A stretch of 26,940 bases of DNA from a virus. The stretch spans positions 1 through 26,940 of IMG/VR virus record IMGVR_UViG_3300021961_000522, one strand, 5' to 3'. Positions 460-26,940 of the stretch are shown here, piece after piece (within the stretch, counting starts at the first letter, position 1; every line of letters begins with the position of its first letter). A program made the translations under genes and the position numbers. The notes under the pieces were generated by a model that was not told the origin of the DNA, did not search any database, and saw nothing but the letters and a program-made list of their open reading frames with translations.

Positions 460-1161
460 ATGAAACATTTATTCAACATATTTGTGTTGATGTTTTTATT
501 AGTTTGTGCAACATCTAATATTGAAGCACAATCAGCAAAAACAAAAGTACAATCTAAAATAGCATCATACGAGGCAGAAAAAACCTTAGATGATATTAAA
601 TGGTATGACGGAGAACCAGAAGGAATACAATTAATTCAGATTTCTATTCCACAAAACATTATCAATCAATATCCAGAACTTAGAGATAAAAGAGTGGGGT
701 TTGGTATAACCAATCGAATTATCGAAGTCTTAGAAGAGGCAGGTCGTTTTTATTTCGTAGAAGAAAAAGACGAAGTAATAAATAAAATCGTACAAGAGTG
801 GGAAAGAAGTGTTGATGGATTATTGGAAGAAGAACTAAATGTCGGTAAGTTCGCAACAACCAAATGGTTTGCTTATGCAGAAGTTTATGACTTTGCAGTA
901 TCCAATCAAGAAGAAATCAAAAGAAGAAAAGCAAAAATAACCAACACAACTATGGTTGGTATCCAAGTTCGTTTAGTAAATGTAGAAACAGGTAGATACA
1001 TTACAGGTAGTGGATTAGGAACAAGTGCAAAAGAAGGTGAAGGTGTATTGAAAAATCTTGATATGTCTTTTGACCAATCAACCGTATCTTTCGCAACAAC
1101 AGGTGCAGTAATTACAGCAGTAGCAAATGTATTGAGAAGATTGGAAAAAAGAGGTTGGTAA
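460..1161 (+). CDS. secreted CsgG-like protein
   Basis: The 233-residue product begins with a signal peptide (about residues 1-24, cut after IEAQ). The C in LLVC is not in a good lipobox, so a soluble periplasmic product is likelier than a lipoprotein. The mature part resembles the CsgG family (curli secretion pore). It has a segment of the type RVGFGITNRIIEVLEEAGRF near residues 78-97, then a helix, then beta strands (VGIQVRLVNVETGRYI, about 165-181) and a C-terminal amphipathic helix (VANVLRRLEKRG). CsgG forms an outer-membrane nonameric export channel for curlin in bacteria. Related genes have, to my knowledge, been noted in some marine T4-like phages, with unknown role. No CsgA/CsgB substrate is present in the window. 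A strong AGGAG precedes the ATG, and the stop overlaps the next start (TAATG). Confidence 0.7.
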   Translation: MKHLFNIFVLMFLLVCATSNIEAQSAKTKVQSKIASYEAEKTLDDIKWYDGEPEGIQLIQISIPQNIINQYPELRDKRVGFGITNRIIEVLEEAGRFYFVEEKDEVINKIVQEWERSVDGLLEEELNVGKFATTKWFAYAEVYDFAVSNQEEIKRRKAKITNTTMVGIQVRLVNVETGRYITGSGLGTSAKEGEGVLKNLDMSFDQSTVSFATTGAVITAVANVLRRLEKRGW

Positions 1162-1286
1162 TGTCTGATTGTTGTTCAAGAGAAAGAAAGAAAAAAGATT
1201 ACTTAGAAATTCCAAAAGCAATACTATTCACATTAACATTTTTTGCAACCCTTTTGTTTATTGAAATACAATTATTTGGATTGTAA
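1161..1286 (+). CDS. small membrane protein (41 aa)
   Basis: This short ORF starts inside the stop of the CsgG-like gene (TAATG) and ends at TAA 1284-1286, sixteen bases before the beta-barrel gene. The product starts MSDCCSRERKKKDY, giving a Cys-pair and basic head. It ends in one hydrophobic helix (about residues 20-41, AILFTLTFFATLLFIEIQLFGL). The stop/start coupling and the membrane segment fit a real gene better than chance. No family is recognised; a regulator or partner of the neighbouring envelope proteins is conceivable. Confidence 0.6.
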   Translation: MSDCCSRERKKKDYLEIPKAILFTLTFFATLLFIEIQLFGL

Positions 1287-1302
1287 TTGGAAGTAGAAAT
1301 GA

Positions 1303-2289
1303 ATGAAATGGTTACTCACATTATTAATATTCAGTAGTCTTTACGGACAAGGTTTCGGTTATAATTATATAGACCCTTGTAATCAACAAGCGGTTAATTT
1401 AAATTATACAACCGAAACAACTGAGAATGGATTTTGGGTTACTTATTATAACCAACGAAGATTCTTTACTTGGTTAGAAGTAGCAGACGGAACTCTACAA
1501 AATTGGACACAACAAGTTTATAGAGATTTTGAAAAACTATTTCCTTGTGCGGTTAATGTAGCAGAAGAAGCATTAGCATCAGCAGTCGCTACAAACTTAT
1601 CGGACGAGTTGGAACGAGAAGACGAAGAAGATATCGGTGCGGGAGAACCAAGTTTTATCGGTGGAGATATCGTTAATACTTTTTACGATTGGGGTTCAGT
1701 AGCAACATTTAACTCGGTATACACAAGAGAAAATTTTGATTTAACACAAGAGTATAATTATACTTTAAACATTACTTTAGATTTAAAAAAGGTATTGGGA
1801 TTATACGGAAATACCAGAAAGGATAAGGATAAAAACCAGAATGCTTTTTGGAATGCAGGAGCATTATATTATAGAACATTTGAAGGTAGTGATTGGTTAA
1901 TCACAGGTAATTACGGAAAAGTAATTCGTAATGATATTAGACAAGTTGGATTGATAAGTTCATCAATAGGTAGAATATCACGAGAAAACTTTTTAAATCT
2001 AAACTTAATGTATGGATATAGATTTCCAATAAAATTTAGAGATAATACGATTAATTTACAAACATTTGTAAGTTATACATTATTTAGATATTTTGAGGGT
2101 TTAAAAACAGAAAACAAATATTTATTACTGGAAAGTCCTATATTGATTTATCCAGGTGCAAACATTGATATAAACTTTACCGAAACCTTTAAAATGAATT
2201 TTGGTTTCAATGTAGGATACAATACCTTAGTCAATGATTTAGGTGAAAGAAACATAAGTTATTCCATTGTATTTGGAACAAACTTTTAA
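1303..2289 (+). CDS. putative outer-membrane beta-barrel protein
   Basis: The 328-residue product has a signal peptide (MKWLLTLLIFSSLYGQ, cut after GQ). A mixed region with two conserved-looking Cys (DPCNQQ, LFPCAV) follows, about residues 20-105. Then comes an acidic linker (ELEREDEEDIG) and a C-terminal half of alternating aromatic/polar strands (for example YNYTLNITLDL, NLNLMYGYRFP, TFKMNFGFNVGYN). It ends in SIVFGTNF, and a terminal phenylalanine is the usual outer-membrane barrel sorting signal. It sits between two CsgG-like genes, which suggests a shared role at the outer membrane. The exact function is not recognised. An alternative ATG at 1299 is out of frame. Confidence 0.65.
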   Translation: MKWLLTLLIFSSLYGQGFGYNYIDPCNQQAVNLNYTTETTENGFWVTYYNQRRFFTWLEVADGTLQNWTQQVYRDFEKLFPCAVNVAEEALASAVATNLSDELEREDEEDIGAGEPSFIGGDIVNTFYDWGSVATFNSVYTRENFDLTQEYNYTLNITLDLKKVLGLYGNTRKDKDKNQNAFWNAGALYYRTFEGSDWLITGNYGKVIRNDIRQVGLISSSIGRISRENFLNLNLMYGYRFPIKFRDNTINLQTFVSYTLFRYFEGLKTENKYLLLESPILIYPGANIDINFTETFKMNFGFNVGYNTLVNDLGERNISYSIVFGTNF

Positions 2290-2298
2290 GGAGTAAAA

Positions 2299-2598
2299 AT
2301 GAAACAACTATTGATATTATTATTTATGGTTCCTTTAATGGCACAATCCATAAACGATACTGATGAAGCTAAACAAGAACATAGACAATCAGTTATAGAA
2401 CAAGAACAAATGCGTCAAGAAAAGTTTAACAAACAAAAACAATTACGCAGAGAACAACAAGTTAATGAGATGATGTTGAGAATGAAGAAACAAGATAAGA
2501 AAAGAAAACACATCATCAAGAAAAAAATTAGAAAACAAAGAATTAGAACATTTATTCTCGGATTGGGAATAGGATATGCAATAGGAGACAACAAATGA
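2299..2598 (+). CDS. secreted basic protein with glycine-rich hydrophobic tail
   Basis: The 99-residue product has a signal peptide (MKQLLILLFMVPLMAQ). The middle is highly charged and Gln/Lys/Arg-rich (about residues 18-80), low in complexity and helical. The C-terminal hydrophobic stretch (TFILGLGIGYAIGD) has a glycine-zipper pattern often seen in membrane-inserting peptides. AAGGAG lies at the expected distance from the ATG, and the TGA overlaps the next ATG (ATGA). This combination (export, polycationic helix, Gly zipper) would suit a membrane-active or pore-associated factor, but that is inference only. Confidence 0.7.
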   Translation: MKQLLILLFMVPLMAQSINDTDEAKQEHRQSVIEQEQMRQEKFNKQKQLRREQQVNEMMLRMKKQDKKRKHIIKKKIRKQRIRTFILGLGIGYAIGDNK

Positions 2599-3110
2599 AG
2601 AAACTATGGTCAATCGCAATATTACTTAGTGTAGTGTTTGCACAATTACCACAACCAACAATGGTTGGACAAGATGATTTAAAAGTTCCAACTTTGTCAA
2701 TTAACAATTTCGTTAATCAAGCAGAGATTGAAGGACTTGAAGACTCAAGAGTTTTCTTAGGTATAACGAATATATTGACAGAAAACGTTATGGACTCAAG
2801 ATATGACTTGGTAGAACAAGACTCAGATTTTGAAATGACAGCAAGAGTTGTTTATCTTGGAAAACCAAGAACCAGTACAACAATACTTGGATTATTTAGA
2901 AGAGAAACAACTACAACAGAAGTTCGTGTAGTGGTGGAAATCAAGAATAAGAAAACAGGTAAAGTAGTAAGTGGTAATGGAACAGGAACTATCGATAGAG
3001 AAATTAGTTCCACAGGTTTTCAGATAAATGAAGAACTACCTTTCGATAGAAGTGAACTCGGTGGAGCACTTAAAGAGGCGATAGGTAATGCGATTCAAGA
3101 AATATTATAA
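2595..3110 (+). CDS. second secreted CsgG-like protein
   Basis: The 171-residue product has a clear signal peptide (MKKLWSIAILLSVVFAQ). The mature part repeats the CsgG-type layout in a shorter form: a short N-terminal region, then SRVFLGITNILTENVMDSRYDLVEQ (about residues 51-75), strands (VRVVVEIKNKKTGKVVSGNG) and a C-terminal helix (GGALKEAIGNAIQEIL). It therefore appears to be a diverged paralogue of the 460-1161 product. It overlaps the upstream gene by four bases and the downstream gene by 23, so the set is probably co-translated. No lipobox Cys is present, unlike bacterial CsgG. Two pore-type paralogues with a beta-barrel gene between them is unusual. Confidence 0.6.
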   Translation: MKKLWSIAILLSVVFAQLPQPTMVGQDDLKVPTLSINNFVNQAEIEGLEDSRVFLGITNILTENVMDSRYDLVEQDSDFEMTARVVYLGKPRTSTTILGLFRRETTTTEVRVVVEIKNKKTGKVVSGNGTGTIDREISSTGFQINEELPFDRSELGGALKEAIGNAIQEIL

Positions 3111-3810
3111 AGATATACTTTCATTAGTAGGAGCAGTCTTGTTGTTAGGAACTACAATCTTTATCAACAAGTATGATGTCAAACAATTATATCGTGAGTT
3201 CGCTACATTATCTTTAAAAGTAAATGCTCAAGAAAAAGAAATCAAGAGTTTAGAAGATAAAGTCAGTACATTAATTGTTCAGAATCAAAGGTTGTTAAAA
3301 GATTTAGAACAACATAACGAAACTCGTGGTAGTGAAAATACTTTACTATTGGAAAGATTATACGACTTAGAACAAAAAGTAGAAATACTTTCGTCTAAAC
3401 CATTAGTATCAATGACCAAAGGTAAAGTCTTTAATGATAGATTTGAGTTTGAAGATAAACAAGTCAATCGTATTGGACAATATGAAACCAAAGGTCAAGT
3501 ATTGGTTGCGTGGAGAGATGATTATCTCACTACTAAAAAGGTAAATGTCAATACCATAGGTGAAATTAATTTATCACCAAAGATAGAAAAGCTTGACAAA
3601 GACAAATTTGTTTCGTATATTGATGAGAGTTATTTAGGTGGAATCACTATACGAGGACGAGGAGATGTCCAAAAAATAGAACCACCAAGAAACCAATTTA
3701 GTGTTGGGCCTTTTATAGGTGTGGCATACAACAACACCACCGGTATGACCGAACCAGTAATTGGTATTGGTGTTACATATAATTTATTTAAAATATGGGA
3801 TTGGAGATAA
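3088..3810 (+). CDS. membrane-anchored coiled-coil protein with beta-rich tail
   Basis: The 240-residue product has a short basic head, one membrane helix (about residues 9-27, ILSLVGAVLLLGTTIFI), and a long coiled coil (about 32-105). A linker follows, then a C-terminal part with strand-like repeats ending PVIGIGVTYNLFKIWDWR. The N-in, rod-out layout with a terminal domain that could contact the outer membrane resembles unimolecular or inner-membrane spanins in general form, but no motif proves this. The start ATG lies inside the previous gene, and an ATG/TAA overlap (TAATG) links it to the next small ORF. Confidence 0.65.
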   Translation: MRFKKYYKDILSLVGAVLLLGTTIFINKYDVKQLYREFATLSLKVNAQEKEIKSLEDKVSTLIVQNQRLLKDLEQHNETRGSENTLLLERLYDLEQKVEILSSKPLVSMTKGKVFNDRFEFEDKQVNRIGQYETKGQVLVAWRDDYLTTKKVNVNTIGEINLSPKIEKLDKDKFVSYIDESYLGGITIRGRGDVQKIEPPRNQFSVGPFIGVAYNNTTGMTEPVIGIGVTYNLFKIWDWR

Positions 3811-8115: not shown

Positions 8116-8255
8116 TGACATTTAAAGAAGTATGTGATTATCTTACAGAGATAATTGTTGGTAAGAAAAAGCCAATATCAAGAAAAAAGAAAACAGTTAA
8201 ACCTGTATTGAATAGTAAGAGTAAAAGAAAATACACAAGGAAGAAAAAGAAATGA
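8115..8255 (+). CDS. small highly basic protein (46 aa)
   Basis: The ORF starts in the previous stop (TAATG) and ends overlapping the next start (ATGA). The product begins MTFKEVCDYLTEIIVG and then becomes almost entirely Lys/Arg (KKKPISRKKKTV ... KRKYTRKKKK). Such a tail suggests nucleic-acid or membrane-phosphate binding. Seamless overlaps on both sides support it. Function unknown. Confidence 0.55.
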   Translation: MTFKEVCDYLTEIIVGKKKPISRKKKTVKPVLNSKSKRKYTRKKKK

Positions 8256-8836
8256 TTTTACAATCATTACTTAGTGGATTAGTATTGTTTACTTCATTTA
8301 GTGCAAGAACACCTAATGATGAATCTATTCTTAAAGATGATTATGAAATTGCACTTGGGTTTAAATCCGAGAACATATATTTCAAAAGAGATTGGGAACG
8401 AGAGTTAGGACAATCTTATATCGATGATGAGATATGGTTTGAGTATGAACCTAAGAACTTTTATTTTAAACCACAATATGTTAATAAAACATCTCGTGAT
8501 TTACAATATGGTAAGGCAGATATTCGTTATCGTAATGGTGATTACTCAATTGGATATACTGGATTATATTCAGATAAACAATTTGAAAATGGTATATCTA
8601 TAGGTGTTCAGAGAAAAAAAGAAATCAATGACAAATTCTCAATGGAAGTTAAGTGGGATGGTTATTATTTCAGAGATGAATTAACTGGTGAGAATCGTTT
8701 TGATATGGAAGATTATGCTCAATTAAATTGGAAAATTTCTGATAGATTGATACTTACTAATATCTTTGATTACAATGATATCAAGGGTAGACAATACTAT
8801 AAATTTAGTGTAGGAGTAGAATATGAACTTAAATGA
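8252..8836 (+). CDS. putative small outer-membrane beta-barrel protein
   Basis: The 194-residue product has a short hydrophobic leader (MILQSLLSGLVLFTSFSA) likely to act as a signal peptide. The rest consists of amphipathic strands with aromatic girdles (NIYFKRDWE, EIWFEYEPKNFYFKPQYV, KADIRYRNGDYSIGYTGLY, MEVKWDGYYF, YKFSVGVEYELK). About eight to ten strands fit a small barrel. The end is ELK rather than Phe, so the sorting signal is not classical. Possible roles are a superinfection-blocking receptor mask or porin-like factor, both inferred. It is coupled to genes on both sides. Confidence 0.5.
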   Translation: MILQSLLSGLVLFTSFSARTPNDESILKDDYEIALGFKSENIYFKRDWERELGQSYIDDEIWFEYEPKNFYFKPQYVNKTSRDLQYGKADIRYRNGDYSIGYTGLYSDKQFENGISIGVQRKKEINDKFSMEVKWDGYYFRDELTGENRFDMEDYAQLNWKISDRLILTNIFDYNDIKGRQYYKFSVGVEYELK

Positions 8837-8979: not shown

Positions 8980-9052
8980 GCTAGTGTAGCTCAGTTGGTA
9001 GAGCAGAGCTCTTGTAAAGCTCAGGTCGTTGGTTCGAATCCAATCACTAGCT
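8980..9052 (+). tRNA. trnT: tRNA-Thr (anticodon UGU)
   Basis: A full cloverleaf can be drawn: acceptor GCTAGTG pairs with CACTAGC, the D arm is GCTC...GAGC, the anticodon stem is GAGCT/AGCTC with loop CTTGTAA, and the T arm is GTTGG-TTCGAAT-CCAAT. The anticodon TGT reads ACA and other Thr codons. The discriminator is T and no CCA is encoded, so the host CCA-adding enzyme is needed. It ends one base before the tmRNA. Confidence 0.95.
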
Positions 9053-9053
9053 C

Positions 9054-9401: not shown

Positions 9402-9486
9402 GGTAAGTTGGCTGAGTGGTTAAAAGCATCAGACTGTAAATCTGACTCTCGTATGAGATACGGTGGTTCAAATCCATCACTTACCA
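9402..9486 (+). tRNA. trnY: tRNA-Tyr (anticodon GUA), long variable arm
   Basis: Acceptor GGTAAGT pairs with ACTTACC. The anticodon stem TCAGA/TCTGA encloses CTGTAAA with anticodon GTA. An extended variable arm (CTCTCGTATGAGATAC) marks a type II bacterial tRNA-Tyr, and the T arm is GGTGG-TTCAAAT-CCATC. The discriminator is A, with no encoded CCA. It begins four bases after the tmRNA, so the three RNAs are probably cut from one transcript. Confidence 0.95.
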
Positions 9487-9544
9487 CTAACAAAAAATAA
9501 TTGCAAAAACATTAAGTTTTAGTGATGAAAGGTTATATTTATAT

Positions 9545-11776: not shown

Positions 11777-13720
11777 ATGGCATTTAGTACAACACCAAGA
11801 AACCCAATGATGTATTTTTGGGGTGATGATTTAGGATTGACTGGAACATCAAACCAAAGAGATAACGACCACGATGGTGAACAGGCAGAGATTCATGTTG
11901 ATGAGATAGATAATCATTTGACTCATAAAAATTTAATTACACCAGATTATTCAATTGATAATGGTGTAAAGATTAATTTTGGTGGTGAGATTACAATGAT
12001 TCTTCTTGATAAAGAAAATGGGATATGGGGTACTTCAGATGGATTAACTCGTAACACTAAAATGTTTTTATTGGGATTATCATTCAGAAATTTTGCAGAA
12101 GATAAATCAATCTTTGATAAATATGTTTTTAGGGGTGATGGTAAAACTATTAGATTCCAATTCATTACAGAGGTTGGTGAATTTGTAGATGATAATTACA
12201 AACACACTAATGATATTGTTTTTGAAATTGTTAAAAGAAATCAAAATATTCAAAATGTTATTGATGATTATTATAAAAAAACTTTATTCAATCAGAACTT
12301 TTTTGTATTGGAACAATTAGAACAATATAGAGATTGGGTTAAAAATCATCAGTTCAAATCCGATACAGATTTATTAAATGCTTTTGAAAATATTCTTAAC
12401 TTATATCAAGTTAGTTGGGCTCCATCAGAAAATACAATCGATGATTTTAGTATTAACTCTGGTGAACGAGGAGTTGCAACAAATGGTATTAGTTCTGTAT
12501 CTAATAAAGTGTTAGCAAAATTTCAAAATAAATATTTAAAAGGACAACCAGAAAATCATGAATTAAATTTGGTTATCAATGAAAAGATAAAATCTATATT
12601 TTCACCTATTAGAAAAAGGTTTAAACCTACTCAAGATAATTGTACCAAAATGTTTAGTTGGGTTTTACAATCTTATTATACCACAAAGGGTGGATACACA
12701 AAAGGTAGTGGTAGAGGTAGTGTATTAGATGTTGTATCTAATGAAATTATGAAAGTGTTAGATAATGAAATGGAAGATTACGCTCCAAGAAATAATGATG
12801 GTGAGATTGATTACAAATATAATGATACATCAATGTTAGAACATTTTAAATCTTCTTTAACATTGTGGGGTTGGTATAAAGACTTACAAAGAATAAATAA
12901 GTATTTTGATAATGGATATATTAATGAAGATGGTACAAGATGGATTCCTATTTTATTAAAGTATGAAAGAGTAACAAAACAAGAACTTACTTTAAAGGAA
13001 CAAAGAGTTATTCAGAACATTCACATTAATGGTAAGTTTGTTTCTTATTCAAGTTTTGATAAGTTAGTTGGTGCTTCTATAAATGAAATAGATAGAGATA
13101 CTGATATATCAAAACTCTTAGTTAAATATTTTGTAAACGATAATTCTGTAGAAACAATTAATTATAAGAATCAGTTTATAGAAGCTTTATTAACTAACAA
13201 AGTAAAAGATAGAACAAGCCATTTCCTAAGAAAGTATAATTACATTGATAATGTATTAGGACATTGTTCTTTAAAAAGTACTACAAAAAATTGGGTTAAT
13301 ATAAATCCAAACGAATCAGGTACAGAAGAATGTGAACATTATCTTTCTGTTAAAGGTAGTAATAAATCAGAAATAAGATATCATGGTATTAACTTTTATA
13401 ATTTAAATAAAACCACAAATGGTTTAATATCTAATGATTCTATTTCAGATAAAAAAGAAGTTGTTAAAAACTTAGATGGAACTCTTGGACAATTACATAA
13501 TCCAAATGATAAATTAGAAAACAATGTAAAGCAATTACTCAATGGTTCAGAATATGATATCTTTAGAGAAGATTCTTTTGGTGATGATGATTGGGTTAAC
13601 GTATGTTCAGTAGGAGTTATTGGAGATAATGTTTCAAGTGAATTAACAAATAACTTACTCTACAAATATAGAAGTGTTCAAATTGATAACTACTTAGAAA
13701 AGGTATTCGGTGATAAGTAA
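11777..13720 (+). CDS. large protein of unknown function (647 aa)
   Basis: The product is 647 residues, with no signal peptide or membrane helix and rich in Asn, Asp and Lys. N-terminal landmarks are MYFWGDDLGLTG, an acidic HDGEQAEIHVDEID stretch, and the strand VKINFGGEITMILLDKENG. The middle is helical (FSPIRKRFKPTQDNCTKMFSWVL; SSLTLWGWYKDLQRINKYF), and the C-terminus ends RSVQIDNYLEKVFGDK. I do not recognise a family. AGAGGA gives a good ribosome site, and it has its own promoter candidate. Its position between a DNA methyltransferase and a PLP enzyme suggests DNA modification, restriction-like or nucleoprotein work, which is inference from neighbours only. Confidence 0.85.
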   Translation: MAFSTTPRNPMMYFWGDDLGLTGTSNQRDNDHDGEQAEIHVDEIDNHLTHKNLITPDYSIDNGVKINFGGEITMILLDKENGIWGTSDGLTRNTKMFLLGLSFRNFAEDKSIFDKYVFRGDGKTIRFQFITEVGEFVDDNYKHTNDIVFEIVKRNQNIQNVIDDYYKKTLFNQNFFVLEQLEQYRDWVKNHQFKSDTDLLNAFENILNLYQVSWAPSENTIDDFSINSGERGVATNGISSVSNKVLAKFQNKYLKGQPENHELNLVINEKIKSIFSPIRKRFKPTQDNCTKMFSWVLQSYYTTKGGYTKGSGRGSVLDVVSNEIMKVLDNEMEDYAPRNNDGEIDYKYNDTSMLEHFKSSLTLWGWYKDLQRINKYFDNGYINEDGTRWIPILLKYERVTKQELTLKEQRVIQNIHINGKFVSYSSFDKLVGASINEIDRDTDISKLLVKYFVNDNSVETINYKNQFIEALLTNKVKDRTSHFLRKYNYIDNVLGHCSLKSTTKNWVNINPNESGTEECEHYLSVKGSNKSEIRYHGINFYNLNKTTNGLISNDSISDKKEVVKNLDGTLGQLHNPNDKLENNVKQLLNGSEYDIFREDSFGDDDWVNVCSVGVIGDNVSSELTNNLLYKYRSVQIDNYLEKVFGDK

Positions 13721-14480
13721 ATTTCTTGATTATGGTTATGATGATATCAAATGTGATGTCAAATTACCACTTCCTATCGTAGAAGAGTTTGATGATATCA
13801 GAGTTGTTCGTGATGATTTACTTGATGGTGGAACTAAACGAAGAGCGTTTACTCAATATGTTGCATCACTTCCTGATATAGAAGAGTTTGTATATGCATC
13901 GCCTCGTCAAGGATATGCACAATTATCATTAGCATATGCATGTAAAGATTTAGATAGAAAATGTACCGTGACTGTTCCAAAGGGTAAACGATATTGGTTA
14001 ACTGATGAGGCAGAAGAGTTGGGTGCTAATATCATAGAGGTTCCAATGGGATACTTAACAAATATACAACATAAGGCTAGAGTATATTGTGAAGAGAATG
14101 GAGCTCACTTGATTCCGTTTGGTGGAGACCATCCAATCATCATTGAGGCAATGTGTAGAGCGGCTATGAGTTTGGATTCAATTAAACGATTCGAACATCC
14201 AACAGAAGTTTGGACTGTTATGAGTAGTGGTGTATTAAGTAGAGGTTTACAAAGAGCATGGCCTAATGCAAAATTTTATGGTGTACAAATAGGACACAAC
14301 ACAACAGAAGACGAGATGGGTAGAGCAGAAACATTTCGTTCTAAATATAAATTTCAACAAGAGTGTAAGAAAGATGAATTACCACCATTTCCGAGTTCAC
14401 TAACTTATGATAGTAAGGCTTGGACATTCATCAAAGAACACGCAACTAAAGGAGCATTATTTTGGAATGTGGGAAAGTAG
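13710..14480 (+). CDS. PLP-dependent enzyme, fold type II (ACC deaminase/D-cysteine desulfhydrase-like), GTG start
   Basis: The 256-residue product resembles the tryptophan-synthase-beta superfamily. Asp-Asp-Leu-Leu-Asp-Gly-Gly-Thr-Lys43-Arg-Arg corresponds to the DD...GGNKxR motif whose Lys forms the Schiff base with PLP. ASPRQGYAQ matches the substrate-binding loop (normally SxGN), and MSSGVLSRGL occupies the place of the phosphate-binding glycine loop. It is shorter than bacterial relatives of about 330 residues. The loops differ from consensus, so substrate and reaction (desulfhydration, deamination or beta-replacement) are open. The start is GTG, overlapping the previous gene by 11 bases; its end overlaps the next by 19. 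Confidence 0.75.
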   Translation: MISKFLDYGYDDIKCDVKLPLPIVEEFDDIRVVRDDLLDGGTKRRAFTQYVASLPDIEEFVYASPRQGYAQLSLAYACKDLDRKCTVTVPKGKRYWLTDEAEELGANIIEVPMGYLTNIQHKARVYCEENGAHLIPFGGDHPIIIEAMCRAAMSLDSIKRFEHPTEVWTVMSSGVLSRGLQRAWPNAKFYGVQIGHNTTEDEMGRAETFRSKYKFQQECKKDELPPFPSSLTYDSKAWTFIKEHATKGALFWNVGK

Positions 14481-15619
14481 TAGTTACTCGATTACGAAGT
14501 ACAGAATATTATAAGGGTGAACCACTAAATCATATTGTTGATTCACATTATCATTTGTTAAATAACTTCATAGAAAAATATGATACGTGGCCACATAATT
14601 TTGATACATACAATTGTTCTTTACCATCACGAGAAAAGAAAAGAACTAATGTTAGAGATTTAAATATACTTAAAGAATCTGATGTGTTGATAATACCAAG
14701 TGAAGCTGAATTTGCTTATAACATATATGGTAGGATTCAAAATCTATTGATGGGTAGAAGTTGGGGGATGGTAGAATATATGAGAGAAATTTTAAAAGAT
14801 AATCCTAAACCAAGAAAAGTTATTTTGTTCACGAGTGATAAAGCAGATACAATAGAATTATATAGAGATAAGGTTTTTAAAGATATTCCTAATTTAACAT
14901 TTTATCAAATAGATGAGAGTGAGTTTCCAGGTGGATTACATCATTTAAAATATATAAACATAAAAAAACAAAATCTTAATACAACAAAAAATAAAGATTT
15001 TGGTTATTGGGGAACTTCTAAAAGATTTAAAATAGATTCTACATCAGAGATGAGAGATTATCATGTAAAGGATTATTATAAAGATGGTAAGATTGTAAAG
15101 TATGGTACTGCTGGATGTGAACTAAAAACAAGATTTATAGAACCATTATATGTTGGTAAAGAATCAAAAGATGAACGACACTTGATATTAAAAGAAATTT
15201 ATAAAGATGAATCAATTAGTAATAATTTAATTGGATACTTTGATGGATTTCAATACACACATAAGTTCGATAAGAATATGACTAATATTTTACCACACTT
15301 ATCAGAATGTAAATTTACACTTTGTTTTAATTGGCCAGGACAAGAAGAACATTTAACTTCAAGATACAATGAGGCATTAGGTTGTGATATTATTCCATTA
15401 GTATGGCAAAATTATGATAGTAATAATCAGTTAGTATTGGATGATAGACAAAGAATGTTTTCTTTCGAAGATATAAAAAAGTGCTTGACTTCTACATCAG
15501 AAAGTGTTAGATTACAATGGTTAAATTCTATTCAAGAAAAGTATTTAAGTGTAACTAAACCAATAGAATATTATGAGGAATCATTTAACCAAAAATTAAT
15601 GGAGATACTAAATGATTGA
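14462..15619 (+). CDS. glycosyltransferase-like protein (GT-B type candidate), TTG start
   Basis: The 385-residue product starts at TTG 14462 inside the PLP gene. It has an N-terminal region with a Rossmann-like strand (ESDVLIIPSEAEFAYNIYG) and PRKVILFTSDKAD. The C-terminal portion (ECKFTLCFNWPGQEEHLTSRYNEALGCDIIPLVW) resembles the nucleotide-sugar-binding end of GT-B and exostosin-type transferases, where a conserved R/E-containing helix precedes a G(C/A)xIPL strand. It may transfer sugar to phage DNA or to a surface component. Exact donor and acceptor cannot be read from sequence. Confidence 0.55.
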   Translation: MECGKVVVTRLRSTEYYKGEPLNHIVDSHYHLLNNFIEKYDTWPHNFDTYNCSLPSREKKRTNVRDLNILKESDVLIIPSEAEFAYNIYGRIQNLLMGRSWGMVEYMREILKDNPKPRKVILFTSDKADTIELYRDKVFKDIPNLTFYQIDESEFPGGLHHLKYINIKKQNLNTTKNKDFGYWGTSKRFKIDSTSEMRDYHVKDYYKDGKIVKYGTAGCELKTRFIEPLYVGKESKDERHLILKEIYKDESISNNLIGYFDGFQYTHKFDKNMTNILPHLSECKFTLCFNWPGQEEHLTSRYNEALGCDIIPLVWQNYDSNNQLVLDDRQRMFSFEDIKKCLTSTSESVRLQWLNSIQEKYLSVTKPIEYYEESFNQKLMEILND

Positions 15620-16487
15620 TAAGATTTATATACCTACACTTGGCAGACCTAATGAACAAGTAACTTGGGATAATCTACCAAAACAATTACAAGAAAAAGT
15701 TTGTTTTGTTATTCATGAAAGAGAAAAAGATTTATATGATTATGATGCAGAGTATTTAGTATTATCTGATAAACTAAACACTATTGCAAAAGTTAGGAAA
15801 GAAATTATATATAACGCTGATGAACAACGATTTTGTATGTGGGATGATGATGTTATTTTCTATAGAAGAAATAGAAAGTATTATGGTGATTTAAGAATTG
15901 ATGGAGTTTATATTCCAGATGTATTAAAGGAAGATGGGAAACCATTATCAAAATGGAAAATGGAATATAGAGATTTTGTAGAGATGTTTGCTCAATTTAA
16001 TGAGTGGTTTGATAATGAAAAAACTTTAGTTCATATTGGACATAGAAGAACTAACTTACCACCATTAGGTTCAACACATGATAATATATTTTTTAATTCT
16101 ATGCATTGTATTGATGGTAAAAAATGTAAGAAGTTTAGAGAGTATGTTGATTGGGATTTATGTCAAGTTGGTGAAGATGCTAACTTTATGTTAGAGTATT
16201 TAACACGAGGTTACACAAACCGAAGAACAGATTTATATTCAGCACATTGGGGTTCATATCAAGAGGGTGGATGTTCGGAGTATCGAGATGCGGAGTTCCA
16301 CAATAAAGAACATGAGAAGTTGATGAACAAGTGGCCAGAGTATGTAAGTGTTAGAAAAGAAATGATGGCTCAAGGTAAAGATGGAAAAAACATTGGTATG
16401 ATAAAAGAGTTTAAATATAATATGAAAAAAGCACATCAAGATTCTACAAACAAGTATTTAAAAAATCTTAAAAAATTTGATAACTAA
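15612..16487 (+). CDS. glycosyltransferase-like protein (GT-A type, DDD motif)
   Basis: The 291-residue product starts IYIPTLGRPNEQVTWDNLP, the usual first strand and loop of GT-A transferases. It has CMWDDDVIFYRR with Asp78-Asp79-Asp80 where the metal-binding DxD lies. Further on, DWDLCQVGEDANFMLEYLTRG resembles the conserved acidic catalytic helix. The fold and length fit a small sugar transferase. It overlaps the previous GT-like gene by eight bases (with GGAG at the correct distance), so both are probably made together. DNA-base, capsular or virion glycosylation are possible. Confidence 0.7.
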   Translation: MIDKIYIPTLGRPNEQVTWDNLPKQLQEKVCFVIHEREKDLYDYDAEYLVLSDKLNTIAKVRKEIIYNADEQRFCMWDDDVIFYRRNRKYYGDLRIDGVYIPDVLKEDGKPLSKWKMEYRDFVEMFAQFNEWFDNEKTLVHIGHRRTNLPPLGSTHDNIFFNSMHCIDGKKCKKFREYVDWDLCQVGEDANFMLEYLTRGYTNRRTDLYSAHWGSYQEGGCSEYRDAEFHNKEHEKLMNKWPEYVSVRKEMMAQGKDGKNIGMIKEFKYNMKKAHQDSTNKYLKNLKKFDN

Positions 16488-21274: not shown

Positions 21275-23248
21275 ATGCCAACACAGAATCCTGATTATAA
21301 CACAAGTAAGAAAACGATAAAAAAAGATATATCATATCTTGGTAGAGAGTTTAGTTCTATCAGAAATAACTTGATTGACTTTGCTAAATCTTACTTCCCA
21401 AAAACATACAATGATTTTAATGAATCAGACCCTGGTATGATGTTTATTGAAATGGCTGCTTATGTTGGTGATATGTTAAACTTCTATGTTGATAATCAAT
21501 ATCGTGAAACTCTATTACATGCAGCAGAAGAAAAGAAAAACATTTTTAAGATTGCACAATCATTTGGATACAAACCAAAACTATCAACACCAGCTACAGC
21601 AATTGGTAGATTTACCGTTCAAGTTCCATCAGTTCAAGTTGGTGATTCATATCAACCTGATTTAACTTATGCACCTATATTAGATGCAGATAGTGGATTC
21701 TCTTCAAGAAACGGAACCACATTTAGATTAATGGATGATATTAATTTTAAAGCATCAAGTTCTTTAGATAGTATGGAAATTCAAGTTGCACAAACAAGTG
21801 GTACAACACCAACATATTTTTCTTTAACTAAAAGTGGTATATTAAAATCGGGTGAAGTAACAACACAAGAATTTAGTTTTGGTGGAGCAACAAAATTTGA
21901 TAAAATTATTTTAAATAATTCTAATGTAATTGATATTATAAGTTGTACCGATAGTGATGGAGATACTTGGTATGAAGTTCCATTTCTTGCACAAGATACG
22001 GTATTTAAATCAATAGAAAATTCAGAAAAGAATAGTCCTGATTTATCAACATATAAAAAAGAATCACCATTTCTTTTACAATTAATTAAAACACCAAAAC
22101 GATTTGTAAAATATATTCGTAGTGATGGTAAAGTAGAACTAAGATTTGGTGCAGGTATTAGTGATAATGCGGATGAAGAAATAATTCCAAATCCAGATAA
22201 TGTTGGTAGTTCACTTGGTACAGGTTTATCTAAACTTGATGAATCATTTGACCCAAGTAATTTCTTGAAAACAAGAACTTATGGATTAGCACCAAAAAAC
22301 ACAACATTAACAATTAAGTATTCTCATGGTGGAAGTATTCAAGATAATGCAGCAAGTAACACAATCACGAGAACTGATTCACCAACATTTACAATTGATG
22401 AAGATAATTTAAATTCTACTGAAGTGAACACGATGAAACAAAGTTTATCAATAACAAATCCTGTTCCAGCAACAGGTGGTTCTAACGGAGAAACTATAGA
22501 AGATACTCGACAAAATGCATTAGCTTATTTTGCATCACAAAACAGAGCAGTTACAAAAGAAGATTACGCAGTTAGAACATATTCGTTACCACAAAAATAT
22601 GGTAACATTGCAAAAACTTATATTATACAAGATGAACAATTAGAACAACATACAAAACTTATTATGAAAGAGGGCGAGATTGTTCAGAATGTTGGAACTC
22701 AACCAATAGCAAATCCATTGGCACTAAATATGTATGTTTTAGGATTTGATTCTAAAAAGAAATTAACTACTTTAAATAGAGCAGTAAAACAAAATTTAAA
22801 AACTTATTTATCTCAATATAGATTAATGACAGATGCAATTAATATCAAGGATGCATATATTGTAAATATTAGTGTAAGATTTAGCATCATCACACAAAGA
22901 GGATACAATAAAAACGAAGTATTATTAAAATGTATTGATGAAGTTAAAAAACATTTTAATATTGATAGATATCAAATTGGACAACCAATTATATTGAGTG
23001 ATATTGCATACAAGATTTCATTAGTGGATGGTGTGGCAAGTGTTGTTCCACCAACAGAAGATAATCCACAAAAACAAATGGTTGTGATAGAAAACAATTA
23101 TCAAACAGAAAGTGGATATAGTGGTCATGTTTATGATATACCATCAGCAACAAAAGATGGTGTAGTTTATCCATCATTAGACCCTTGTTGTTTTGAAATT
23201 AAATATCCAAATTCTGATATAACAGGTAGAGTAGTAGGAGACATTTAA
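21275..23248 (+). CDS. 6: gp6-like baseplate wedge protein
   Basis: The 657-residue product is almost the same length as T4 gp6 (660). The N-terminus has the conserved SIRNNLIDFAKSYFPKTYNDF, DPGMMFIEMAAYVGDMLNFY and QSFGYKPK. The C-terminal half includes EDTRQNALAYFASQNRAVTKEDY (about 409-431), the baseplate-J-type signature, then NIAKTYIIQD. gp6 dimers link the wedges into the iris ring around the hub. It follows gp25 by one base and runs into the next gene with overlap (TAATG). Confidence 0.9.
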   Translation: MPTQNPDYNTSKKTIKKDISYLGREFSSIRNNLIDFAKSYFPKTYNDFNESDPGMMFIEMAAYVGDMLNFYVDNQYRETLLHAAEEKKNIFKIAQSFGYKPKLSTPATAIGRFTVQVPSVQVGDSYQPDLTYAPILDADSGFSSRNGTTFRLMDDINFKASSSLDSMEIQVAQTSGTTPTYFSLTKSGILKSGEVTTQEFSFGGATKFDKIILNNSNVIDIISCTDSDGDTWYEVPFLAQDTVFKSIENSEKNSPDLSTYKKESPFLLQLIKTPKRFVKYIRSDGKVELRFGAGISDNADEEIIPNPDNVGSSLGTGLSKLDESFDPSNFLKTRTYGLAPKNTTLTIKYSHGGSIQDNAASNTITRTDSPTFTIDEDNLNSTEVNTMKQSLSITNPVPATGGSNGETIEDTRQNALAYFASQNRAVTKEDYAVRTYSLPQKYGNIAKTYIIQDEQLEQHTKLIMKEGEIVQNVGTQPIANPLALNMYVLGFDSKKKLTTLNRAVKQNLKTYLSQYRLMTDAINIKDAYIVNISVRFSIITQRGYNKNEVLLKCIDEVKKHFNIDRYQIGQPIILSDIAYKISLVDGVASVVPPTEDNPQKQMVVIENNYQTESGYSGHVYDIPSATKDGVVYPSLDPCCFEIKYPNSDITGRVVGDI

Positions 23249-25053: not shown

Positions 25054-26940
25054 ATGATTAATTACGGATTAACACCTAAAGATAGAGAACAATTAGAATC
25101 CAAAAAGAATTTATATTCTGGTTTTGGAAGAGATAGTCGTGATTATATTCATTTGTATGTTTATAATAAACAAGGTACTCTTGTAGAAGATGAAATATTT
25201 TCAACAAATGTAGTTGATTTTACTGATGAAAAAACAATTAATTTAGATATTGGAACTCACTTAAGAGAACTTGGATATTCACAAGGAGAGTTTTCAGTTC
25301 AATATTTATTCCTTAGAAAAATAGCAGGTAAAGATGATACGGTTTTTATAAATGATTATGGTGATATTCATAGAGGTAAAATACAAACTAAAGTAGTAAA
25401 TGGAGTAACAAAATATTTCTCTACTAAAAAATTTGGTAATAGAAATTCACAAGCAGAATTAACTGAAATATTTCCAAAGGAAATGAAATATGTTTTCAAA
25501 AAAATATCTCAAGATAGAACCGAAGTAGAAATTAATTATCAAGATATTAAGAATGGAATCTATAGAAAAAATTTAAAAGAAATAAATAGAATTATAAATT
25601 ATACACCTACTAAACTTCCTGATAATGATGCGGGAACAATTAGATTTGATTTAACAGACCCTTATGTATTAGTTGGAAACTTTGATGAAAAAGATAGAGG
25701 ATTTACTGATGCGATGGTTGGGGGTGAAATATCAATTCAAGGTATTTATGAAATCAATGGTCGTATTATTCAAGAGGAAGAAATTATATATCCTGACCCA
25801 CCACCGCCAGACCCAATTGATATATTGGATGTGGATTATGTAAAAAAACAAGTTAAAGATAAAGTACCAACACCTTTTGTAGATATTGTTGAGGATTTCA
25901 GAGAAGAGTTACCAGAAGAAGATATAGTTTATGGTTGGGATGAATCAAGTAGCATATGTTTTGTAGGTGATACAAAAATAAAATTAAGTAACAATCGTAC
26001 CATACCAATCAAGATGATGAAACCAGGTATGAAAGTTAAAACTCAACAAGGGTATGCAAAAGTATTAAAGGTAACAAAAGAAAACTTACCTTATGGAGAT
26101 AGGTTTGTAAAATTTGGTAAACTCATTACAACAAATAGTCATCCAATCTTTTATAAAGGTGGTTGGTATCTTGCAAGTGAACTTGGTAAAGAATTTCATG
26201 GAGAACCTACTGATGTTTGGAATTTACAATTAGATAAACATCACACTATATATGCAGATAATGTGGTAAGTGCTACATTAAACAAATGGAAATCTGATAA
26301 TAATAAATCTTGGAAAGAAAGATTTTTTGAATCAAGAAATAGATTTAAAATGTTAAGACCTGCAGGACCAATACCTGGTGGTGGTAATTATAGTAGTATG
26401 GATGGGGAAGTTGGATTTACCGATGAAGGTGGTCTTACTTATGACGCTATACCTGAGGTAGGTGGATATTCCACTCCAAAGAGTACACCTTTTGTTAGTG
26501 ATAATGAAGTTGTTATGGATAGAGTTGTTCCAACATTAACAACAAAAGAAATTGTAAAACAAATAAAGGTTTCTCGAAACACACCTCTACCAATTGTAAT
26601 ACCAGAGATTCGTGAAGTAGTATCTGTTGATTATAAAGCAAAAATTATTGAGGTGTTAGACCATAATAGAGTTCGTGTTAATAAATCTTGGGAAGATATG
26701 TCATTAGAGAATAAAAATATTGGTGAAGATACATCAAAAGATATTTACCAAGATTTTATGGTTCAGTATATTAAACACCAAGTTGAAAGATTAAATACAT
26801 ATTTAGTTGCAGAAGGAACTTATAATTTAATTACAAATATGATTCCTAATCCAGATAATCCTGAATCAAGATTTGTAAAATTATATCAACCATTACCACC
26901 ACAAATTGAAACTATGGATTTATGTTATTTTGTGGAAGAA
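25054..26940 (+). CDS. large structural protein with embedded Hint domain (partial, runs off window)
   Basis: From ATG 25054, two bases after the previous stop, the frame stays open for 629 codons to the window end. Residues 1-245 look like a tail/baseplate beta protein. A proline hinge (YPDPPPPDPID) follows. Residues about 300-408 form a Hint-type domain: Cys302 in SSICFVGDTKI (block A), KPGMKVKT, then Thr360-Asn-Ser-His363-Pro (block B TxxH), and VWNLQLDKHHTIYADNVVS (block F). The terminal His-Asn and +1 Cys/Ser/Thr of inteins are not seen, so N-terminal cleavage as in hedgehog, rather than full splicing, is possible. A Gly/Pro linker and another structural part follow. Confidence 0.85.
   Translation, partial: MINYGLTPKDREQLESKKNLYSGFGRDSRDYIHLYVYNKQGTLVEDEIFSTNVVDFTDEKTINLDIGTHLRELGYSQGEFSVQYLFLRKIAGKDDTVFINDYGDIHRGKIQTKVVNGVTKYFSTKKFGNRNSQAELTEIFPKEMKYVFKKISQDRTEVEINYQDIKNGIYRKNLKEINRIINYTPTKLPDNDAGTIRFDLTDPYVLVGNFDEKDRGFTDAMVGGEISIQGIYEINGRIIQEEEIIYPDPPPPDPIDILDVDYVKKQVKDKVPTPFVDIVEDFREELPEEDIVYGWDESSSICFVGDTKIKLSNNRTIPIKMMKPGMKVKTQQGYAKVLKVTKENLPYGDRFVKFGKLITTNSHPIFYKGGWYLASELGKEFHGEPTDVWNLQLDKHHTIYADNVVSATLNKWKSDNNKSWKERFFESRNRFKMLRPAGPIPGGGNYSSMDGEVGFTDEGGLTYDAIPEVGGYSTPKSTPFVSDNEVVMDRVVPTLTTKEIVKQIKVSRNTPLPIVIPEIREVVSVDYKAKIIEVLDHNRVRVNKSWEDMSLENKNIGEDTSKDIYQDFMVQYIKHQVERLNTYLVAEGTYNLITNMIPNPDNPESRFVKLYQPLPPQIETMDLCYFVEE

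Follow-up and report, generated by a model that had tools for sequence, protein, structure and literature searches.

A conserved phage gene set encoding two CsgG-like proteins, a candidate outer-membrane barrel and a secreted cohesin protein in aquatic Bacteroidota phages

Introduction

The holdfast anchor HfaB/HfaA/HfaD includes a CsgG-family protein that exports surface adhesin proteins. Among phages, CsgG and CsgF together with curlins have been described in pelagiphages and in methylophage Melnitz, where the proposed roles of these genes are uptake, sibling capture or lysis (PMC7029224, PMC9004378, PMC9599517). A second architecture is found in PelBC, in which the lipoprotein PelC forms a ring that sits on a barrel of its own gene, PelB (PMC12141448). 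Phages can also encode cargo for the type IX secretion system (T9SS), as described for cryophage proteins with type A sorting domains (PMC7468147). Here we describe a locus that combines elements of these systems, found in a viral record of 26,940 bases (the window). Its core is a set of four genes, for which a literature search of open-licence papers revealed no earlier description.

Results

A tightly packed run of envelope genes

The original prediction placed five open reading frames (ORFs) in one coupled run, and all five were found at that position, on the + strand and tightly packed. The start of the gene for the second CsgG-like protein (CsgG-B) overlaps the stop of the preceding glycine-zipper gene as ATGA, and a sixth gene at 3088–3810 overlaps CsgG-B by 23 bp, which makes it part of the same run. 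The features of the locus, with their basis, are as follows.

44–445, + strand: one-helix membrane protein with a coiled coil, upstream of CsgG-A (synteny)
460–1161, + strand: CsgG-A, predicted exported CsgG-fold protein, 233 aa (AF2 model, PDB matches, alignments of relatives)
1161–1286, + strand: 41-aa one-helix membrane peptide, overlapping the CsgG-A stop (ORF)
1303–2289, + strand: candidate outer-membrane barrel protein, 328 aa (alignments, low-confidence AF2 model, Foldseek)
2299–2598, + strand: secreted basic protein with a glycine-zipper end (ORF, synteny)
2595–3110, + strand: CsgG-B, shorter putative CsgG-fold paralogue, 171 aa (hhalign against the CsgG-A profile, alignment)
3088–3810, + strand: inner-membrane anchor, coiled coil and DUF6808-like C-terminal strands (DUF6808, phrog_739, synteny)

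Farther downstream, the window contains a Nudix gene, UvdE, and genes of metabolic and DNA-modification-like type, followed by baseplate genes. Outside the module, a 194-aa exported beta-rich protein (8252–8836) is possibly a second outer-membrane barrel, and tRNA-Thr(TGT) and tRNA-Tyr(GTA) lie at 8980–9053 and 9402–9487, respectively. A row of genes at 13710–16487, specifying a PLP-dependent enzyme (PF00291), an unknown ORF and a TET-associated glycosyltransferase (PF20691), is preceded by a 647-aa unknown ORF and resembles a cluster for DNA base hypermodification. At 25054–26940, a Hint/intein-like stretch (CFVGDTKIKLSNNRTIPIKMMKPG...SHPIF) is present inside a long structural ORF of the baseplate/tail region.

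The predicted structure of CsgG-A has the topology of CsgG

Searches with CsgG-A as a single sequence (Pfam, PHROGs, PDB, and its own record against PF03783) detected no CsgG similarity. Single-sequence searches of Pfam, PHROGs, NCBIfam and the PDB likewise yielded no usable match for any of CsgG-A, CsgG-B and the barrel protein, and profile searches of the PDB also failed. The CsgG-A of the window does not match PF03783 at the curated cut-off; two of 21 CsgG-A homologues match this family at an E-value of about 1e-3, below the cut-off. When compared with the CsgG family profile using hhalign, CsgG-A scored 26.0 (column-shuffled decoys, at most 21.9) and CsgG-B scored 20.4 (decoys, 18.2). Because these scores barely exceed those of the shuffled decoys, the relation to CsgG rests on structure and not on sequence.

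We built an AF2 model of CsgG-A from an alignment of 21 relatives (pLDDT 73, pTM 0.67), and its order of strands and helices matches what we take to be the order of the CsgG core. The best PDB match of the model by Foldseek is CsgG (E 1.2e-7, prob 1.00), and the top 29 chains comprise 25 of CsgG and 4 of PelC; further matches are PelC (4e-6), GNA1162 (6e-5) and TraT (8e-4). In the comparison with viral models, a phage protein bearing the annotation CsgG matched best (E 1.8e-8). The TM-score against CsgG is moderate (about 0.45) and the rmsd over the full length is large (above 10 Å), so we claim the CsgG fold for the CsgG-A model as topology and not in fine detail. The CsgG likeness put forward in the original prediction is therefore upheld by fold and by weak profile matches, and fails in single-sequence searches, where the empty outcome is the one named in advance as speaking against it.

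Marine relatives of CsgG-A carry a lipobox-like cysteine (LLGC, LSAC or MTAC), and the protein of the window has an atypical LLVC. Most freshwater homologues have no lipobox-like cysteine, and an AQ signal-peptidase site is found in CsgG-A outside the marine clade.

CsgG-A and CsgG-B are, by profile comparison, diverged paralogues (hhalign probability 98 %, E 5e-14), as anticipated from the pairing of two CsgG-like copies in the sequence. The middle helix region of CsgG-A is absent from CsgG-B.

The phage proteins lack CsgG-type membrane hairpins and accompany a candidate barrel

Each CsgG subunit contributes two amphipathic pore-forming membrane hairpins, a feature that the phage proteins do not share. 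The tip of hairpin 1 is on average 35 % charged in the phage CsgG-like proteins versus 14 % in Flavobacteriaceae CsgG, the hairpin-2 stretch comprises about 21 residues versus 38 in CsgG, and the CsgG motifs GGxGARYFG and SKTILSQ are missing. A CsgG-type pore made by these proteins themselves, as had been envisaged, is unsupported and was set aside as unlikely because both hairpins are short, charged or missing.

The protein encoded between CsgG-A and CsgG-B consists of an N-terminal domain, in which C26 and C82 are conserved or nearly so, an acidic linker, and a C-terminal 8-stranded barrel ending in Phe. Its AF2 model is poor overall (pLDDT 56.5) and shows eight consecutive strands at residues 181–327; the PDB neighbors of this model identified by Foldseek are nearly all outer-membrane beta-barrels, none of them below an E-value of 1e-3. 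The low-confidence model thus points to an outer-membrane-type protein with an 8-stranded C-terminal barrel, in agreement with the barrel candidate originally proposed. In most relatives the barrel gene is located directly or closely downstream of CsgG-A.

The module is found in marine and freshwater phages

A profile scan identified 232 viral loci with CsgG-A relatives. The gene order 44–445 homologue, CsgG-A, barrel, CsgG-B, 3088–3810 homologue is constant, where sequence exists, in about a dozen close marine relatives, and the last of these genes adjoins CsgG-B throughout the marine clade. Freshwater relatives encode a different one-helix protein at a position similar to that of the 44–445 gene. 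The membrane peptide and the glycine-zipper gene come and go among the marine relatives: the peptide is optional and present in one relative, and the glycine-zipper gene adjoins CsgG-B in two and is elsewhere or absent in others. Most relatives lack both, which argues against counting either as a member of the system, as had been supposed, and the glycine-zipper protein was rejected as an obligate part.

In the cultured Flavobacterium phage immuto, CsgG-A (gp17, 32–38 % identity), the barrel (gp18) and CsgG-B (gp19) follow one another as they do in the window, with the cohesin protein as gp15, and among 50,697 phage records the family was found in immuto only. CsgG-A is absent from Microcystis phage Mel-JY01 (L122), which provides the closest baseplate match; the baseplate wedge protein of the window (21275–23248) is 40–48 % identical to those of immuto and Mel-JY01. 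The phage with the closest baseplate match (48 %) is annotated as infecting a cyanobacterium, and the next matches infect Flavobacterium. Two matches in genomes, L025 (Flavobacterium sp. Ww15) and L026 (Bacteroidetes bin-0726, 254 kb), have phage-like neighbors; each is probably a phage contig that was binned into a MAG. A search for a host origin was unsuccessful, with no CsgG-A homologue in 299 other Flavobacteriaceae genomes.

Relatives encode a secreted cohesin protein and T9SS components

In the marine relatives, a secreted protein of 760–990 aa is encoded just upstream, beyond the position of the 5' edge of the window. This protein shows a similarity to cohesin that stays under the Pfam cut-off, and it carries a T9SS type A sorting domain (TIGR04183, 29.9 bits; cut-off 23). 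A PorV/PorQ-family protein (NF033709, 90.1; cut-off 90) is encoded upstream as well. One such phage PorV/PorQ-family gene, at L028:6194-7048, lies directly upstream of the module, a possible case of phage use of the T9SS. The freshwater equivalent is a cohesin protein of roughly 590–700 aa (Pfam cohesin up to 33–37 bits; cut-off 24.1); those of immuto, L026 and L053 bear a T9SS tag and the others do not. Over the cohesin domain, the marine proteins can be aligned with the freshwater ones (hhalign E 5e-4, probability 31 %). Phages of the immuto type additionally encode secreted C-type lectin and LamG-like proteins. We infer from these relatives that the phage of the window also has cohesin and PorV/PorQ-family genes upstream, where the record ends.

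No CsgA/CsgB curlin, CsgE or CsgF was recognized by Pfam among the genes of the window and the scanned neighbors, nor among recurrent neighbor families, although highly diverged curlins could have escaped recognition. The statement that the locus has no curlin substrate is accordingly true of the window, but the cohesin protein encoded just upstream in relatives is a candidate secreted partner. Pfam detected no classical dockerin domain; as single dockerin-like motifs are all that is visible, polymerization through cohesin-dockerin contacts is speculative.

Surface proteins of this kind would also suit superinfection or surface exclusion, in which an outer-membrane ring or plug blocks further phage, with the cohesin protein as a coat, much as TraT acts against mating. 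The TraT decamer is indeed among the PDB matches of CsgG-A. That match is weaker than those to CsgG and PelC, however, and the module comprises a larger number of genes than is usual for an exclusion system. We regard an exclusion apparatus of this kind as unlikely; exclusion is compatible with both an assembly or export role and a lysis role.

Four genes are retained together

To define distinct loci, we required CsgG-A proteins less than 95 % identical to one another and a sufficiently long neighborhood (n=25). CsgG-A, the barrel, CsgG-B and the cohesin protein were present together in 24 of these 25, and in the exception, L073, CsgG-B is present by a weaker profile match. Relative to CsgG-A, the position of CsgG-B varies between -7.7 and +4.5 kb and that of the barrel between -2.4 and +2.1 kb, and these shifting distances indicate that co-retention is not merely a frozen order. 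All four genes were likewise found in 39/39 loci seeded on cohesin and 37/37 seeded on CsgG-B, counting loci whose flanks each reach at least 7.9 kb; these two sets share contigs with each other and with the earlier set, and all belong to the freshwater-type clade. The multi-part system that had been predicted is thus seen, as this quartet, in every sufficiently long neighborhood tested, and the comparison of related phage genomes reveals strong conservation of the set among highly divergent phage contigs and despite changes in gene order.

Such co-retention, together with the presence of the same set in a cultured phage, bears on whether the genes are non-functional or unrelated neighbors, the CsgG-like gene being a diverged remnant that a single phage lineage has inherited. 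The marginal direct sequence signal for CsgG would fit a remnant, but CsgG-A relatives have open frames and conserved residues at 32–42 % identity, and we consider this explanation very improbable.

The surroundings of the quartet make lysis the main rival reading, on account of the holin and endolysin genes near freshwater loci and of the spanin-like gene at 3088–3810. The CsgG-like proteins, the barrel and the spanin-like protein would then breach the outer membrane as infection ends, and a lysis role has been proposed for CsgG of methylophage Melnitz (PMC9004378). CsgG-B overlaps the spanin-like gene, whose product matches DUF6808 (E 4e-4, below the cut-off) and the Rz-like spanin family phrog_739 (E 2e-5) and has a spanin-like layout; no partner lipoprotein was identified for it. 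Holin-like genes occur in 20 of 33 distinct loci and a GH19 plus peptidoglycan-binding endolysin in 14 of 33, which makes them much less constant neighbors than the quartet members are of one another, and neither endolysin nor holin was recognized beside the genes in the window. Lysis would moreover have no need of a large secreted cohesin protein. We judge lysis unlikely, and since the invariant fourth member of the set is that secreted protein, surface assembly or export is favored over it.

Discussion

A putative assembly and export station

The conserved envelope gene set probably serves to assemble a structure on the infected cell surface. Our preferred reading, to which we give a probability of about 0.5, is that Bacteroidota phages encode an outer-membrane assembly or export station for their own cohesin surface protein. 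CsgG-A and CsgG-B would, after export, reside at the periplasmic face of the outer membrane and, as their fold and paralogy suggest, may form CsgG/PelC-like rings. Since they lack the membrane hairpins of CsgG, the separate barrel protein would supply the channel or membrane anchor, as PelB does for the PelC ring, or in the manner of the barrel-like C-terminal domain that Flavobacteriaceae CsgG has fused to it. The client would be the secreted cohesin (dockerin-like) protein, displayed or polymerized on the infected cell, and the host type IX system is probably on its route because of the T9SS tag in several lineages and the marine PorV/PorQ-family protein. The likely purpose would be remodeling of the infected-cell surface late in infection, either to block superinfection or to stick cells and particles together.

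Several points count against an export station. A cohesin protein with a T9SS tag could get to the cell surface with no help from CsgG-like proteins, a barrel of eight strands is usually not wide enough for a protein channel, the barrel model is poor, and the location of the freshwater genes amid holin-like and GH19 endolysin genes fits lysis equally. A bolder version, which we find possible but doubtful, is a four-component, phage-specific surface-assembly system unlike any described secretion system, in which a paralogue ring on a barrel would build a cohesin-dockerin fiber or coat with the host T9SS and the phage PorV/PorQ-family protein en route.

With 232 viral CsgG-A loci in one scan, this envelope system is widespread in aquatic Bacteroidota phages and, as far as we searched, undescribed, and obligate co-occurrence ties its genes together. 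It links the open questions of phage CsgG-like genes, of how Bacteroidota phages handle the outer membrane, and of T9SS exploitation by phages. Because the set is carried by cultured phage immuto (host Flavobacterium sp. LMO8), it is directly testable.

Comparison with known systems

Like the cryophage cargo, the proteins described here include phage-encoded T9SS type A sorting domains; the cryophage cargo consists of enzymes and a PA14 protein, in an account that mentions neither CsgG nor cohesin (PMC7468147). With the curli module of pelagimyophages and Melnitz (CsgG, CsgF, later CsgA/B, FecR), the locus shares a CsgG-fold protein in a co-located envelope operon of marine myoviruses. Those phages encode recognizable CsgG family members of alphaproteobacterial type with CsgF or curlin, whereas here CsgE/F and curlin were not found in the set, which instead has two hairpin-less paralogues, a separate barrel, a cohesin protein and T9SS parts.

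Flavobacteriaceae CsgG (L107-L121; 457–512 aa) has a C-terminal extension, absent from E. coli CsgG, that appears barrel-like as judged from sequence. It resembles the phage module in coupling a CsgG domain to a barrel-like domain, but is one fused protein with intact CsgG hairpins where the phages have separate genes without them, and the phage barrel has no convincing profile match to the extension (10 %).

Relative to PelC-PelB, the differences are that PelB is a 16-strand barrel with a TPR scaffold that exports polysaccharide, whereas the phage barrel is predicted to have 8 strands, and that the phages have two putative ring-type proteins in a module without polysaccharide genes. PelC is nonetheless the second-best fold match of CsgG-A, and the likeness is one of architecture: a CsgG-like protein without membrane strands of its own, which by analogy may form a ring, encoded beside a separate barrel.
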